From contig NC_049979.1 of NCBI RefSeq assembly GCF_000003815.2, forward strand, positions 25,168,058 through 25,232,057: a stretch of DNA of 64,000 nt, read 5' to 3'. Positions 14,957 through 24,841 of this stretch are shown here, piece after piece. The stretch is from Branchiostoma floridae. Taxonomy: Eukaryota > Chordata > Leptocardii > Amphioxiformes > Branchiostomatidae. The position numbers and the translations under genes are program-made. How positions within the stretch are numbered: position 1 is the first letter of the stretch; every line of letters starts with the position of its first letter. A model generated the notes under the pieces. The model saw nothing but the letters and a program-made list of their open reading frames with translations, was not told where the DNA came from and did no database searches.

Positions 14957-17900
14957 TCACAAGGCTGCCTTGACGGCTGCAACCACTTCTGGTAGAAGAC
15001 TGTCTCTGTTCTCCTTTGTAACCTGTAAAACACATGGAAAATCCTTGTACAGGATTGAGGGCATTACAGGAAGAAAAGAATGAAAGCCATCTTCACTGAA
15101 TGATGTCTTGGACTAGGCAAGGTATCAACCAGGCAGAGATGGCAGACTTCACCCCCATTACCCATACTGCTTTGCCACCCCACCTGTCCCACAGACAAAA
15201 ATTAAGTACTGTAGAAAAATTATGTACTAGTATATAGACACAGACAGCCAAAAGGGCTATTTGTCAATCCCTATAGGAGAAAGGTAACAAAACAAATGGC
15301 CATAAGATAGATTTAGATGTGGAAATAAAAATGGGCAAAACCTAAGTATTTCTAATCCTAGCATACAAAAACACTGTGTTGATGACAGGCATATAAATGT
15401 TACGTAACTAACGGTTACCATGAATAGCACAGTGTCCTTCCTTCTCTTGATATCCTCCACTAGAGGTAGGGGGCGCCCCTTAGGGACAGGTATTGTAGCG
15501 AGGACGGTACTCCCTGGGGAATCTAGAACCATCCTAGTCTCCAAGCAGACCCTACGGTGCCTTAGAGATAGTATCAAAGCTGGCAAAGGAGTTAGCCGGC
15601 CAAAGGGAGATAGCCGGCTAAGGGAGTCAAACGGGCACCGGAGGTCTGCCTGCACTGAAACAGGGTGGAGCGTTTCTATTCAACAATGGTGTCGCTGCCC
15701 CACCCTGTTGTCAAGTGCTAATTACTTTACGAGCGACTTACACTGGACAAAGTCAGTGACCCGCGCGCTATGCGCGCACTTCCCAGCGGTAGGTTCGCGC
15801 CAAATGACGCCGGATTGAAAAATTTGACAGCATCGCAACGTAATAGAACAAGCGCCACAATACATAAAATATTTAGTTTAAAATCGATTTGAAGTCTGAA
15901 AATAATGCCAAACAAACTACAAATTTCGATATACATATATAATAACACCAAACTAACGTTATGAGTTTTAAAAACATGCCGCCTGATCGTAATCCTCTTT
16001 GTTATGTTTGGATGCGGTAGAAACAACCACAACAAGCCAAGCGCGCTGCCATTTCTGTCTCCTGAAAGTTTATTTCTATTTCGTTCTGCGATTTTGTAAT
16101 TTCGTCCGGCAAAAACTGCGTCAAGGACCAGATGTCTGCTCCCGGCTAGCAACTATGGCTTGCATTGGTAGCATAGGGATTTCCCCTGACCGGTAGCGAT
16201 GCCGACAAAGACATCCTTGCCTTCCAGAGTGGCCAAAATGGAATCGAGCTGTGCTTTCTTCGGCTCGAATCCCCATACATCGCGGAAAACACGTCGTACT
16301 CTGGCCTCCATTGTTGCCGGCATTTTAAATCTGCCGGTAACGGTCATCGTAGGTGACCCGTGACGTGACTTCCCGTGAGACGGTGCAGGGGCGCACGAGC
16401 CATCCCAGGACGGGAGGGCAATTAACACCTACTCGGCAAGCACAGTTTAATAGGCAACAAATAGATGATAATAGCGTCAGATCAGCCCGACTGAGGGCAG
16501 ACCCTGGTGCCGGTATACCAAGTCCCTGGCCAGCTTTGATACTATTTCTAAGGCACCGTAGGGTCTGCTTGGAGACTAGAACCATCCGGACGGCCTGTGG
16601 GACAGATGAAGGGTGTACAAAGTAAATGATTCAGATCTAGCGAGGTTAGCTGCTTTCCCTACAAGAACGCCACGTAGTTTAAGGGCACACATGTTAGTCC
16701 CTCAGAGAGTAAGATCTTCTTCATTTGCCTCCTCATTTATACCACTACTTATCACAATTTGGAACAAACTTCCCGTTGAAACCAGAGGGCTGGGAGCATC
16801 AGCCACAAGCCCGTCCGATGTGTCTGCCTTTAAACGAAATCTATCTACATTCATGCAAAACCGATTCCGACAAAACTTCAAGCTAGAGCAGGCTTGCACA
16901 TGGTCACTAGCATGCTGTTGCGCCTCTTGCATTGCCACAAGGCCACGATAATTTTACTCCATATTATGACTACATGTATATCTATTTCATAAATTTGGAC
17001 TCAATAATGTATGTGTGTTGTTAAGTTGATTTATCTTGATTTGAACGTTACATTGATTATGATATCTGTTCTTGTATTTTATGTATATTATGATTTGATG
17101 TATCATTGTTATGTTTAAGGTATGGCGGCTTCGAAAAGGTGTCTTTTGACACCTGTTCTGCCATACCCTCCAGTCTGGAGAATCCTAATAAATAAATAAA
17201 TAAAGAACAATGTTCCGTGGTACTGAACATCACACAGACACACCTGTCCTTGGTACTGAACATCACACACAGACACACCTGTCCGTGGTACTGAACATCA
17301 CACAGACACACCTGTCCTTGGTACTGAACATCACACAGACACACCTGTCCTTGGTACTGAACATCACATAGACACACCTGTCCGTGGTACTGAACATCAC
17401 ACACAGACACACCTGTCCGTGGTACTGAACATCACATAGACACACCTGTCCGTGGTACTGAACATCACACACAGACACACCTGTCCGTGGTACTGAACAT
17501 CACATAGACACACCTGTCCGTGGTACTGAACATCACACACAGACACACCTGTCCTTGGTACTGAACATCACATAGACACACCTGTCCTTCGTACAGAACC
17601 TCACACACAGACACACCTGTCCGTTGTATTGAACATCACACACAGACACACCTGTCCGTGGTACTGAACATCACATAGACACACCTGTCCGTGGTACTGA
17701 ACATCACACACAGACACACCTATCCGTGGTACTGAACATCACACACAGACACACCTATCCTTGGTACTGAACATCACATAGACACACCTGTCCTTCGTAC
17801 AGAACCTCACACACAGACACACCTGTCCGTTGTATTGAACATCACACACAGACACACCTGTCCTTGGTACTGAACATCACATAGACACACCTGTCCTTCG

Positions 17901-20900
17901 TACAGAACCTCACACACAGACACACCTGTCCGTGGTACTGATCATCACACACAGACACACCTGTTCGTAGTATACAGAAGGGGTTGCTTGCTCTTCACCC
18001 AATAGAAGGCTTTTCTTTTACATTATTCTTCAGTTTTCCCCAATGCAATCATACACTTGTAGTTTCCTAGCATTTCTTTTTGTTCCAATGAGACCATAAA
18101 CTTGCCTGGATGAAGTGCTGACTGAACATCTCCATCTTGCCTATTTCATCGATGATGTACACACACTTCATCCCAGATGGTGGCTGAACATAAGGGTGGA
18201 AATAGTGCTGTTAACTGTCATGTATTTATTTTCATAGTAGAAGGAAAAGGAGAATTTTGTAGTGTTTCAACACGGATAAAAAGCAATAGAGAGTGGATAG
18301 AGGGAGTGGCAGAGACTGTCCGTGCACATGGCCTGGCTCTCCAGGAGGCGACACACCTGGCTCAAGACAGATGTTTACATCTCCCCGCGACGCCCCCCCA
18401 GGCATAAGCGGAAGGATAAAGTAAAGTAAAGTAAAGTAAAAAGCAATGCATAACATGTTATGCCTCCATCATCTCCATTTATCTTGAAGATAATCAAAGT
18501 CAGATAGACTTCACTTAAGTACCTTGAACCTCAGTACCGGCAGTGCGAGTCCCTCAAAGGAAGGTAGGTTGACCAGGTACTGTCCCACTCGGTACTCATG
18601 ACGTCTACTGGGGGCACCAGACTGGTTACTGGAATACAGTTTATGAATATTCATGTGGGGACATTGAGATATTGGAAAGGCATGTTTGATAGCAGTGTCA
18701 TTTGTGATGGAGAGTTCCGTTTATAAAAATGTGAAAATAAAGCCACCACGAACATGTCAAGATTTAAAATACTCAAACATATAAAGAGACAACATAGCAA
18801 GCTTCATGTACGTCATTGCTATGTTGGTTGTTCATGTGTCTTCGTCATGAAATTGATATATTAAAACCAAAATTAGGCCACAGCACAGCAAGTAAATTTT
18901 ATGGATGACACCAGCATGCTCATTAATTTTTTTCTGGCTTAAGAAGAAAAAAAATTTCTTCATCAGGGATGGGCTACATGATGAGAAAGTACAAAAAAGG
19001 GCAAATGGGTTGTAGCCTGGTATCCAGCCGTATTATAGCTCCTGAGTCGCTTCTATCCTCTCTGAAAATACTTTGCAGAGGATAGAAGAGACTCTGGACT
19101 ATAATACGGCTGGATACCAGGCTAAATGGGTTGTGCTGCAGGCTTATCATTGTACGTATTGATTTTAGGAATGAAGATATATAACATGTCTCTTCAACTA
19201 TGTGATGCCACTTTGCACGAACATCTGTGAATTTTCATTGATTTTAAGGCCCCCTCTCACTTGACGTGCGGCACGCTTGCGGCATTGCTGCGTTCGAAAA
19301 CGCAGATGTACCCCCACGGAACCTAGAGGTGCCGCAAGCCAACCTAGAGGTGCCGCAAGCAAACCTAGAAGTGCCGCTTGCAAGCGCGACGTTTTTTAAA
19401 AAGTTTAAAAATAACGCAAGTGGCAAGATGCCGCAACAGTGCCCCAACGGTGCCCCAACAATGCCCCAACAGTGCCGCCACCATGCCCCAAACAGTATCA
19501 AGGATATATTTTGCCTATTTTACACCAAGAATCAAAAGTAAACATCATTTTATCACCGAAAAACTATTTTAGATGCATTTCTAATAATTTTACAGCGGTT
19601 TTCAATCCAGTTAAAACACTGCGAATTCCAGAAAACTTACCTTGTATCCGTATTCAGAGTTAACTTAAAAATACATCTTTTGATTTATTTAATGAAAAGT
19701 AGGTCAGTATTTTATACTTGAAAACAAAAAATAAGTAACTGGTTTATCGATTAACCTACGGATGTAGAGATAAAGGTTATCGTACAACGTTCAAAAAGAA
19801 ATTATTTATGTTGGATGACAACGAGTTTGCGTTTGCGTTATAACGTTACAAGCTAATCATTGCTGGTAGCCTGCCACCGATAAAATACAAGACAGTCATT
19901 CAGACCCATGGGCCATATTTTTCTCACTTTTTACAAATATGATAGACTTAGACATCAATAGGCTGGCAAGCCATCCGCCGACAATGAAAATACTCAGCGT
20001 CATACAAAAAAAGTATGAAATATCAAACATTTTCATTTTAGAAATTTGCAAAATTGGTGAATAAACATATAAACATACATAATTACACATAACGTTACAT
20101 GGTGCAAAACGTACACATCGAGTGAAATCTGGTATATAGTTCGTGTCCGTTCATTTGGGTCATTTCCTTTACTGTAAAAGTCTTTCAAGGTTATTTATAG
20201 CATATGTACCATATAATTCATTATCATAAGGGAAATCTTTTCATTATAAATCTCATTTTCTCATCATTTTAAGGTGATTTTTCATAAATTGACAACGCTG
20301 CAATTGTCAATAACATGTTCATTTAGCCTAGAAACGCAACAGTGCCGCACGTCAGTGTGAGTGCAAGACAAAATCGGCGAAATTAACACAACAGTGCCGC
20401 AGTGAACGAACGCAGCCAATGCCGCAAGCGTGCCGCACGTCAAGTGAGAGGGGACCTTTAGCAAAACTGACCAAGAAAATAGGGAAGAGACACAGTAAAT
20501 TTCAAAAGTAGTACAGTGGAGCTGGGCTAGGAGTATAGTGGAGGGCCTCCGTTATTCCATCCTCTGGGGAGGACTCTGGTACATTCCGACATACCTGACT
20601 CTGGCTAGCGGCCCCCTCTGTCCGCCCAGTGTGATGACGTCGAACCCCAGTCTCTTGCCCCCAGTCCGGACCTCCTCTGTGTAAAACCCGTGGACTCTCA
20701 CTCCATCACTCTGTAGGGCCTCACATGCCTGACGTGTCAAGGTAGTCTTCCCAATACCTGAACCAGGTGTCATAGATGTTACTAGTATATTCTTTTCTTA
20801 ATTCCATCAAACATCACGTTATCTGAAACACATTATCTCTATTCCTTTGCCTTCTTTATATTACTAGTAGTCCATGCCAGCAGTGTGCTATTTGCTTTAA

Positions 20901-22080: not shown

Positions 22081-24841
22081 TGAGTGTGTGTGGATGGCTA
22101 CACACATAAGTTACATCATAATGGCACAATATCAATAATTGGCAAAACTACATTTGTATTTAGCCTTTAGGTACAGGTACAGGCACAGTGGGTAGTAACT
22201 TAGGGTTTAAAAACTTTAATAGACAAGTTTCGTAAAATCCACTTGCCCTATAGCCATACAGGACATTTGCATTGTCTCTAGCTTTAAACAACTTTTCACT
22301 GGCTAATCTAAAGTTAACTGACATAAATCTGTGCACTTTTACTTACAGCAAGGAAATCATAATTTTATTTTTCACAATTTCAGTTAAAAAAAGGACTTGT
22401 ACTTGAATGTAAAAGAGCATGTAATTGAATATTTTCCCATGGAGAAATCTCACTGGTTCGGTCAAGCCCGTACATGTACAGTAGGACATACACTTGTCCA
22501 ACAACTTTCTCTTTCCCTGGGCAATGGAGATAATTGTTCAACCCTGCTTGTACATGTAACTCTGTATTACTATTAGTTCGTATACCTGTATCTGAACATG
22601 TATTATGTATTATGTAGGTACATAGCCCTAATTCTAAGGCACTACATCTCTCACAATAACTTACTATATAGAGGTCTATTACACGTAATCTTTGCACTCT
22701 ACTTATAACGTGGTTGTTGTCAAGGCTGACACAAACATTCACAGTGGCTTGCCTTCTTGTCTCAGTCTCTACATATTTTCTTAAAAACAAAATGTACAAT
22801 AAAAAAAAGGAAGAAACAAACCAATGTACAAAGTTTACATGTGCAGGGACCAGGTTATAGTCCATATTTTACACTTTGAAAAAACTGAAGCTTTGCAAAA
22901 CTACTCATTTAACAAATATATTACAAAATGTCAGAAAACACTGTAATTTGAGAAGTCAGTAGTATAACTATAATCAAAAGTACAGATATTCAGTATATTT
23001 ATGATAAACTTGACAACTCAAGAAAAATGTAAAATGTTTCTTTTAAGGTTAACAGATTTTCACTGCAAAAACGTGTTCTCTAAAGACAAACCTTACCTCA
23101 AAAAAGCTCCCAATTTCTTGGCTTTCTAGCTGTCAATGTATGATAGATTATAAAAACAGTTTCCCATATACATGTATGCAAACATCCCTGTCAAGTTTGA
23201 GAGTTTTCTTGGTCACCAAGACAAGATAACTCTAGAATTGCAGGAAACTAGCTAATGGTATCATCAAAAGTATTACCAAAAGTTGTGGGAAGGTCGAGAA
23301 GTATTGACTATTAACATACAAAATCATACAAAATTTGTTACATTCCATTTAATGAATGCTATCTGAACTTCTATCTTCCTACTTTTGCAAACTCTCTCCT
23401 CAGCCAGTCAGAGTCCTGATAGAACCTGGGGTCTCCCAGCCGCAAAGCTGTCCTCTTATAGAAGTAGTAATACAGCACGGCACCTACTCTCTGGAACACG
23501 AACATGGCCTGGAAGCCTTCGTTCCAGATGTACCTGTTTGGGTCCTCCCACCGCAGGGACATGGCCCACACGTGGAGTCCCACACACAGGACGAAGTAGG
23601 TCAGGGTCACGATGATCGTGGTCTTGAACTTACGGATGAGAAGTCCGACGAGCCCCGCCTGGAAGATGAAGGTGTTGAAGAAGACGAGGAAGACGACGAT
23701 GACCGCAAAGACGAGACAGACGTCCTGGATGATGTACAGGACCAGCTGGATCACGTTGGCCATCCGCAGCAGGTCCGAGAAGGAGTTGACAAAGATGTCC
23801 ACGAAGAGCAGGAAGAACTGGAGGTACAGGATTGGACGATAGCTGCTCCGACGCATGGTGGTATGACAAGTATCTCACTTGGCAGGAATTACGGAGACAA
23901 ATTTCACTCCGAGATAGTCGCCGCAACAGGTCTCGTAGAACACTTGATCAACTCCAGTCGAGTTCAGTTGTTCATCTCCGTAATGCAACTCGGCGGTCTC
24001 TTGGAAAAATCTCAAAGTTTTGCCATCCAGCCTTTACTTGGATCCTTCCACAAAGCTCTAACAACCGTCTGGAAATTTTCTCAGCTCGAGAAGGCGGTGG
24101 CGGTGATGACTGTGTGATAAAAGTGTCTGAGATCAAAATATAGAAGTCCACAAGGTACAAGACCAATTCTGGAAATGACTACCCGCAGTCCCAAGCCTAA
24201 TTAGTTTGTGAATTTCTATTGCCCTCCAGGGGCTTCATAGGAAGTCACAGTCCCATAAGCCCCCTGGCCATTTTCAAAATTAGACCCAGTGCTTTCTTCT
24301 AACACATCACATCTTGAATACAGCTGTGGCATGGGAGTCTTGTTTGTCTTGGAAACCACTAATGTTTGCAATTTTCACACATGGAATGTTTCAGACAACG
24401 TACAAGGCGGCTGGTACATCTGATGGAGATACGTGTTTGAGGAAAAACAGGCCTAGTGGTCATGACCAGTACTAGTAAATTTTTATTCAACACTTGTTCA
24501 TAATACCAAATAGAACCCAATAGTACAACCACTTCACACTTGTGCTAACCTTGGCAACACACCACACGTGTATTCAAAAACAGAAGAAGACGGAAATTAA
24601 TTATCATATTAGACTACTACTATCAACACTTTAGCTACAATACTTCAAAAAATATCCCGAGCTGAATAAATATTTTGTGACCATGCAAAGTAAAAGGGGG
24701 AGGGGGGTGATCATGAAAAGACAAATGGCGGACAAAACATACACGTCGATTGTTGTAACGGTTTTTCAGACATTCTGTCGTCTTACCTGGTGGTCCCGTT
24801 AAGAGTACATGCCGAGCACCAGCAGAACCAGCAGTAGCCAT
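14957..24841 (-). CDS. NTPCR: Cancer-related nucleoside-triphosphatase, exon 5 split by a transposon
   Basis: A small THEP1-family P-loop NTPase that hydrolyses nucleoside triphosphates. Exons in transcription order: 24841-24787 ([18 protein letters not shown]), 20757-20595 (GIGKTT Walker [17 protein letters not shown]), 18628-18523 ([19 protein letters not shown]), 18183-18106 ([15 protein letters not shown], Walker B), 16594-16579 plus 15525-15419 ([26 protein letters not shown]) and 15022-14957 ([14 protein letters not shown], stop). Joined this way every phase fits and the product is 196 residues, against about 190 in vertebrates. Exon 5 is interrupted at its sixth codon by the transposon at 15535-16578 with a 9-bp duplication. 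The exon 4 donor is GC type (AG/GCAAGT). As assembled, this allele would read from exon 5 into transposon sequence and stop, unless the insert is spliced out. Confidence 0.93.
15535..16578. mobile_element. DNA transposon inside NTPCR exon 5 (9-bp duplication)
   Basis: A 1,044-bp element with inverted ends TAGTCTCCAAGCAGACCC… and …GGGTCTGCTTGGAGACTA. The arms match for about 50 bases. It is flanked by the perfect nonamer GAACCATCC at 15526-15534 and 16579-16587. Removing the element and one nonamer restores the NTPCR frame exactly. The interior carries a RecQ-like helicase start on the minus strand. A 9-bp duplication is seen in Mutator-like and some other superfamilies. I cannot assign it further, as no transposase is recognised. 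Confidence 0.9.
16153..16311 (-). pseudogene. RecQ-like helicase N-terminal fragment carried by the transposon
   Basis: From the ATG at 16311 the frame reads about 52 residues resembling the start of a RecQ DNA helicase: [19 protein letters not shown] corresponds to motif 0, and [13 protein letters not shown] is a Walker A region like the RecQ family's TGGGKSLCYQ. A stop follows soon after CYQ. Only the first segment of a helicase domain is present. It could be a captured host exon or part of an ancestral element's own helicase. The reading frame upstream of the ATG is open but not recognised. Confidence 0.6.
16604..17206 (+). mobile_element. Non-LTR retrotransposon 3' end (RT C terminus and TAAA tail)
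   Basis: Translates to the typical C terminus of a CR1/L2-like reverse transcriptase ([17 protein letters not shown], then [14 protein letters not shown]) and ends in a TAAATAAATAAATAAA tail at about 17188-17205. The 5' part is missing, as usual for truncated insertions. It sits in the NTPCR intron just upstream of the exon 5 acceptor. Confidence 0.7.
17206..17962. repeat. Minisatellite, about 22 units of 32-36 bp
   Basis: Units read TACTGAACATCACACACAGA followed by CACACCTGTCCGTGG. Variants alternate between a CACACAGACAC and a CATAGACAC form, which gives a two-unit higher-order period of about 68 bp. Some later units carry CAGAACCTC. The apparent cysteine-rich frames across it (…[19 protein letters not shown]) are a by-product of the repeat. 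Confidence 0.9.
18288..18437 (+). mobile_element. Short 5'-truncated retroposon with AGTAA-type tail
   Basis: A 150-bp insert ending in four copies of AAAGT, flanked by a 10-bp duplication AAAAAGCAAT (18278-18287 and 18438-18447). This is the signature of target-primed reverse transcription. It lies in the NTPCR intron between exons 3 and 4. Confidence 0.75.
19014..19123. mobile_element. 110-bp hairpin MITE
   Basis: 25-bp perfect inverted ends starting AGCCTGGTATCCAG, plus an inner GGATAGAAG pairing, make almost the whole element one hairpin. The 11-mer AAATGGGTTGT flanks it on both sides (19003-19013 and 19124-19134). Confidence 0.85.
19248..20456. mobile_element. 1.2-kb inverted-repeat element rich in GCCGCAAG motifs
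   Basis: Ends are about 39-bp inverted repeats (GGCCCCCTCTCACTTGACG… and …CGTCAAGTGAGAGGGGACC). Flanks are TTAA on the left and TTTA on the right, so a TTAA-type duplication is possible but imperfect. Just inside the left end are tandem 21-bp units with GCCGCAAG and then CCCCAACAGTGCC units. No transposase seen. Confidence 0.7.
21365..21697. mobile_element. Second copy of the CAGGTRAAAT-rich MITE
   Basis: Opposite-strand relative of the element at 2838-3179, sharing the segments CAGGTAAAATTGGAGCTGTG and CACTGGTCCATGTACTG. The ends (GGGGCTCG and GATCCCTGG) are more degenerate than in the first copy. Confidence 0.5.
22041..22083. repeat. TG/GT microsatellite
   Basis: About 40 bases of uninterrupted TG followed by TATGTGTGTGAG-type variants. 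Confidence 0.9.
23371..23856 (-). CDS. TMEM138: Transmembrane protein 138, intronless, nested in NTPCR intron 1
   Basis: A 161-residue single-exon frame (vertebrate TMEM138 is 162). Conserved stretches are [81 protein letters not shown] and [18 protein letters not shown]. Four hydrophobic segments fit the known multi-pass membrane topology. In vertebrates it acts in cilium formation. The start at 23856 has a strong context (ACCACCATGC). The vertebrate gene has introns and this copy has none, so it may be a fixed retrocopy or may have lost its introns. The long antisense frame over it is a shadow. Confidence 0.95.

Follow-up and report, generated by a model that had tools for sequence, protein, structure and literature searches.

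Introduction

Transposons of the MULE/MuDR type have long terminal inverted repeats, generate target-site duplications (TSDs) of about 9 bp and include non-autonomous copies that carry gene fragments. Pack-MULEs and other gene-capturing transposons are non-autonomous and carry a fragment of a cellular-like gene, and the TSD of Kolobok elements is TTAA. The RecQ-encoding DNA transposons named from the literature in the pertinent sections of PMC9587614 are KolobokH and Kolobok-1_CCri; KolobokH encodes the helicase together with a transposase and is described there as found only in fungi.

The element analyzed here interrupts a coding exon of NTPCR in the amphioxus Branchiostoma floridae. It lies in a stretch of 64,000 nucleotides (hereafter the window; NC_049979.1, positions 25,168,058 to 25,232,057, on the contig called C1 below) of assembly GCF_000003815.2, which the assembly section of the B. 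floridae pangenome paper gives as the reference, with 19 chromosomes (PMC12373286). The assembly searched comprised 513,431,437 bp in 431 contigs. A recent loss-of-function insertion in a single NTPCR gene is the best explanation of the locus and, in our judgment, a likely one.

Results

A single NTPCR locus with a transposon in exon 5

The gene was reconstructed on the minus strand by exon-by-exon alignment, with the human NTPCR sequence as the tblastn query. Window coordinates of the exons are as follows.

24787-24841, minus strand: NTPCR exon 1, with the start codon and the first half of Walker A (tblastn with human NTPCR)
20595-20757, minus strand: NTPCR exon 2 (tblastn and exon joining)
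18523-18607, minus strand: NTPCR exon 3 (tblastn and exon joining)
18106-18183, minus strand: NTPCR exon 4, with Walker B (IDEIGKME); a GC donor follows directly
16579-16594, minus strand: NTPCR exon 5, upstream piece, encoding AVRMV and the first base of the next codon
15419-15525, minus strand: NTPCR exon 5, downstream piece, encoding LDSPGSTV...LFM
14957-15022, minus strand: NTPCR exon 6, containing the stop codon

The introns have GT-AG signals throughout, except for the GC donor following exon 4. This donor of intron 4, at window position 18105 (CAG/GCAAGT), is required by the conserved frame. With the element and one copy of the repeat removed, exons 1 to 6 join into 570 nt encoding 189 aa without an internal stop, and in Pfam the joined exons match NTPase_1 (PF03266; a THEP1-type NTPase) at 6.3e-52, covering profile positions 1-167 of 168 and both Walker motifs, A and B. 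Exon 5 itself then consists of 16594-16579 plus 15525-15419 (16 + 107 = 123 nt) and is in phase 0 on both sides. The open frame and the PF03266 match bear out what an earlier note on this DNA, made from the letters alone, had claimed, namely that excision leaves an in-phase exon of this length. The same note had named a different true exon 5 elsewhere as the finding that would overturn its reading; a protein search of the whole 513-Mb assembly with the NTPCR sequence gave six matches, all six at the window locus, so that the assembly yielded neither a second NTPCR nor an alternative exon 5.

NTPCR intron 1 contains an intact single-exon ORF for TMEM138 (23371-23856, minus strand; PF14935, 4.4e-52), oriented like NTPCR itself. 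Next to exon 5 on its upstream side, window ~16630-17200 (plus strand) resembles the 3' end of a non-LTR retrotransposon, to judge from its motif and a AATAAATA tail; Pfam gave no match on this neighbouring repeat (16.6-17.2 kb).

The features of the insertion are the following.

16579-16587: TSD copy 1 (GAACCATCC), read directly
15526-15534: TSD copy 2 (GAACCATCC), read directly
15535-16578: non-autonomous DNA transposon, 1,044 bp, with termini that recur in family copies at other genomic loci
16529-16578, minus strand: terminal inverted repeat, RecQ-proximal end, 50 bp with 1 mismatch to the other end
15535-15584, plus strand: terminal inverted repeat, other end, 50 bp, 1 mismatch
16325-16327, minus strand: in-frame stop inside the element, ending the NTPCR frame (frame reading)
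16165-16347, minus strand: truncated RecQ-like helicase N-terminus, through the GQGKSLCYQ Walker A region (Pfam and PDB match)

The element runs from TAGTCTCC at 15535 to GGAGACTA ending at 16578, with GAACCATCC immediately outside each end. The nonamer and its position outside the inverted ends had been reported before and are exact to the base as read directly; the earlier wording, an exact footprint, was right about the duplication but not about the term, which is properly target-site duplication. Likewise, the gene as assembled does end in transposon-derived sequence after Walker B, a statement that we can refine: residues 1-133 are native and are followed by 83 element-encoded residues and the stop at 16327-16325, ~900 nt upstream of the E5/E6 junction, which is the last exon junction. 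As a general rule, a stop far upstream of the last exon junction is expected to trigger nonsense-mediated decay, so either decay or an inactive 216-aa protein would be expected here. The remaining five exons are open, with splice signals present and no decay, which fits a recent hit and also a transcript rescued by splicing.

The element family

The genome DNA searches scored the best 40 candidates only, and copy numbers are therefore lower bounds. There are at least 24 near-full copies of the window element, taken from 40 loci; L025 and L032 were excluded for want of a second terminus, L034 because its ends are unclear, and L033 and L035-L046 as shorter copies, and L016 and L023 were retained despite extra internal sequence. 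TSDs were perfect over 8 bp in 12/24 copies and over 9 bp in 11/24, with L028 alone (1/24) having no exact duplication. The 9-bp duplication in NTPCR is not due to chance, given that 23 of these 24 copies, the window's included, are duplicated perfectly at the same termini. The shorter derivatives carry both ends in common with the window family. With its inverted ends, near-constant duplication length and no transposase match, the element has the makeup of a non-autonomous cut-and-paste transposon: Pfam found only a weak DEAD helicase match in it, and its longest internal stop-free stretch (141 codons) was unmatched. No autonomous copy of the window's own family was found in the DNA search (best 40 candidates), and the sole match to the RecQ-side half alone, among the matches listed, runs into a stretch of N.

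Joining the flanks of the 24 insertion sites gave spanning ORFs, and the longest at each of the 23 sites other than NTPCR was scanned with Pfam. There was no match at 21 of the 23; L006 (OTU) and L007 (Ribosomal_L27) were the two that matched. At L006 (C17:12411075-12412112) the copy interrupts an OTU-like protease ORF (joined flanks PF02338, 6.5e-10), while the L007 copy (C13:13082640-13083679) lies ~9 codons upstream of the Ribosomal_L27 match (PF01016, 5.4e-06), perhaps in an intron just before that exon. The copy at L019 (C7:14390095-14391139; no Pfam match) lies shortly past an ORF with nucleoporin-like FG repeats, apparently a short way into its intron. Together, L006, L007 and NTPCR give a hint, short of a demonstrated preference, that the family inserts in or near exons.

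Age of the insertion and alternative readings

Among the matches listed, the window copy is nearest to L002 (4 substitutions over 1,044 bp) and L003 (5 substitutions). Polarization by 14 other copies leaves 2 substitutions private to the window copy, at 16024 and 16410. Using the mutation rate and Ne given for B. floridae in the relevant part of PMC12862219, the insertion dates to 3.25e5 generations (3.9e4-1.2e6), or 0.19 Ne (0.02-0.70), an estimate derived from 2 substitutions on the assumption that the copies have not undergone gene conversion with one another. After 4Ne generations ~41 private changes would be expected (P of 2 or fewer, 9e-16), and the insertion is too recent for neutral fixation. 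A neutral simulation, scaled to 1,000 haploids, with weights for the probability that the allele is sampled, gave a mean frequency of 0.13, a median of 0.10, P(>0.5) of 0.016 and P(fixed) of 0; a harmful insertion should be rarer than this neutral expectation. Gene conversion or a selective sweep would weaken the argument from age and frequency, and a sweep could have driven the allele to higher frequency. Variation in the presence or absence of sequence is common in B. floridae, with 10.3% of the reference reported as dispensable across 41 animals (PMC12373286).

The earlier note had left two outcomes standing, a null allele on this haplotype or an insert acting as a new intron. The null allele is supported because the locus is single, the stop is premature and the age is too young for neutral fixation, while the intron is not supported by the sequence. 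Were the insert spliced out, completely or nearly so, NTPCR would still work, and there is precedent: introners derived from DNA transposons with TSDs and terminal inverted repeats are known in aquatic eukaryotes, some of them leaving extra bases in the transcript (PMC9860276, in whose main text the word Branchiostoma occurs 0 times). However, of the 13 cuts (1,053 bp each) that restore exon 5 exactly, none (0/13) is GT-AG or GC-AG, which makes a clean new intron unlikely. There are 41 GT/GC-AG pairs that keep the frame and give an exon within 45 nt of its true length; pair 16591/15538 would alter one residue and pair 16556/15533 would add 10, but their splice scores are low (-3.3 and 6.0, respectively). 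The cryptic in-frame pair with donor 16432 and acceptor 15649 has a summed score of 13.8, within the range of the five real NTPCR introns (10.9-16.4) on a generic matrix not fitted to amphioxus, but its product would gain 90 residues. Skipping exon 5, which is in phase 0/0, would also keep the frame, with the loss of 41 residues. Judged by these splice-site sequences, a functional NTPCR with the insert as an intron appears improbable.

An old or fixed insertion would instead make NTPCR a pseudogene in B. floridae, and the sole copy found in the assembly is indeed broken. Nevertheless, 2 private substitutions stand against the 41 expected after 4Ne generations, and the other exons are open with their splice signals present, which together render this reading very unlikely. 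The chance that the insert was absent from the source animal and is an artefact of assembly seems slighter still: a chance join would not yield a complete element with a perfect 9-bp exon duplication, and the two private substitutions distinguish the window copy from the two closest copies among the matches listed.

RecQ-like helicase and DUF6589 loci

The RecQ-like fragment of the window element ends just after Walker A; its Pfam match to DEAD (8.1e-05) is under the curated cut-off, and its best PDB match is RECQ5 (E 5e-06). The peptide gave 67 genome matches, and DUF6589 (PF20231) gave 55, with 0 in 14 control genomes. Analysis of 45 of the 67 RecQ-like matches (the 22 dropped being window family at 75% identity or more) placed DUF6589 within 10 kb of 7, all convergent, where ~0.1 would be expected; no DUF6589 lay within 10 kb at the other 38. 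Five of the 45, none with DUF6589, were still diverged members of the window family (L027-L031). The pairs are located as follows.

C1:31149279, C9:15265766, C17:4127902, C2:16599488: convergent RecQ-like / DUF6589 pairs, candidate transposon type
C298:16721, C7:9434235, C12:1157611: convergent RecQ-like / DUF6589 pairs, candidate transposon type

Because the C7 and C12 loci are copies, 99% identical up to a sharp boundary, the independent cases are fewer than seven, and C17 and C2, alike by score only, may reduce them further. At C1 (2.7e-16) and C17 (1e-4, below the curated cut-off), Pfam detects DUF6589 in pieces of exons. The DUF6589 matches include a 711-codon frame at C17:8979632. The first 200 bp of the C7/C12 element recur at a minimum of 38 more places, and its terminus, CATCCTCC, differs from that of the window and C1.

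The C1 locus has the RecQ part closest to the window's among the matches listed (65% identical). Its terminus, TACTCTCCAAGCAGA, agrees with the window's, TAGTCTCCAAGCAGA, at 14/15 bases, the common form being TA(C/G)TCTCCAAGCAGA. This match is weak alone (BLAST E 0.58), with similarity ending after 15 bases, but it falls exactly on the element boundary, as 38/39 other scored places start at query base 11-16 (from the best 40 scored candidates, hence at least 38 places). Short palindromic derivatives with the C1 terminus have perfect 8- or 9-bp duplications in 5/5 examined, as in the window family. Elements of this kind are L076-L080, near-palindromic and 139-154 bp long, with 8-9-bp duplications and the terminus of the C1 RecQ+DUF6589 element. 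The RecQ-like sequence starts at a comparable distance inside the terminus at the window (231-267 bp), C1 (305 bp) and C7/C12 (~226 bp). In the stretches examined, C9, C17 and C298 showed no similar terminus, the right end of the C1 element was not seen within the 10 kb examined, and no full-length RecQ+DUF6589 copy with both ends was recovered from the limited stretches covered at these loci.

The window element is thus probably a deletion derivative of an element of the RecQ+DUF6589 type, and the recurrent pairing and termini suggest that such a transposon group exists, with DUF6589 as its presumed transposase. A broader proposal can be offered only tentatively, and we lean somewhat against it: that a convergent RecQ-like helicase and DUF6589 define a largely undescribed animal transposon superfamily, with 8-9-bp duplications and a DUF6589 transposase, that has recently been active in amphioxus and disrupts conserved genes, NTPCR among them. 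The term DUF6589 was not mentioned in the literature searched, and such elements may already have a name.

Discussion

We infer the following sequence of events. A non-autonomous cut-and-paste transposon, mobilized in trans by a RecQ+DUF6589 element, would have landed recently in NTPCR exon 5 on the haplotype represented in the assembly, with 9 bp of exon sequence duplicated on integration. The transcript's reading frame would then continue through 83 element codons to a stop, with nonsense-mediated decay or an inactive 216-aa protein as the expected outcome. The resulting loss-of-function allele would be segregating at low frequency, with the reference animal a heterozygous carrier.

If so, the locus offers a natural, datable loss-of-function insertion in a conserved gene for which no second copy was found, one that is directly testable in existing B. 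floridae resequencing (PMC12373286) and two-parent pedigree (PMC12862219) data. It also illustrates how a conserved gene may appear to be absent when judged from a single reference haplotype. In addition, the element links a recently active transposon family with a RecQ-like helicase and with DUF6589, a domain to which Pfam assigns no function, and provides a concrete hypothesis for the role of DUF6589.

Among known systems, KolobokH resembles the loci described here in placing a RecQ helicase in a transposon setting. An identity with Kolobok or KolobokH was nonetheless rejected, as TSDs in the window family are 8-9 bp and varied in sequence rather than TTAA. The window element is like Pack-MULEs in being non-autonomous with a cellular-like gene fragment, but the helicase of related loci begins ~226-305 bp in from the terminus, and the fragment is therefore better accounted for by an internal deletion within a resident gene than by capture. 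It is like introners in being an element with terminal inverted repeats and TSDs within a coding exon of an aquatic animal, and unlike them in that the cuts restoring exon 5 exactly lack GT-AG or GC-AG sites. Long inverted ends, a duplication of ~9 bp and a gene fragment are shared with MULE/MuDR elements; unlike those, the window family has TSDs of 8 or 9 bp in near-equal numbers, and DUF6589 is the gene paired with the helicase at related loci, although a link to MULEs may still exist. As a mutation, the insertion is of an ordinary type, if unusually clean and testable; the kind of element that caused it is less ordinary.
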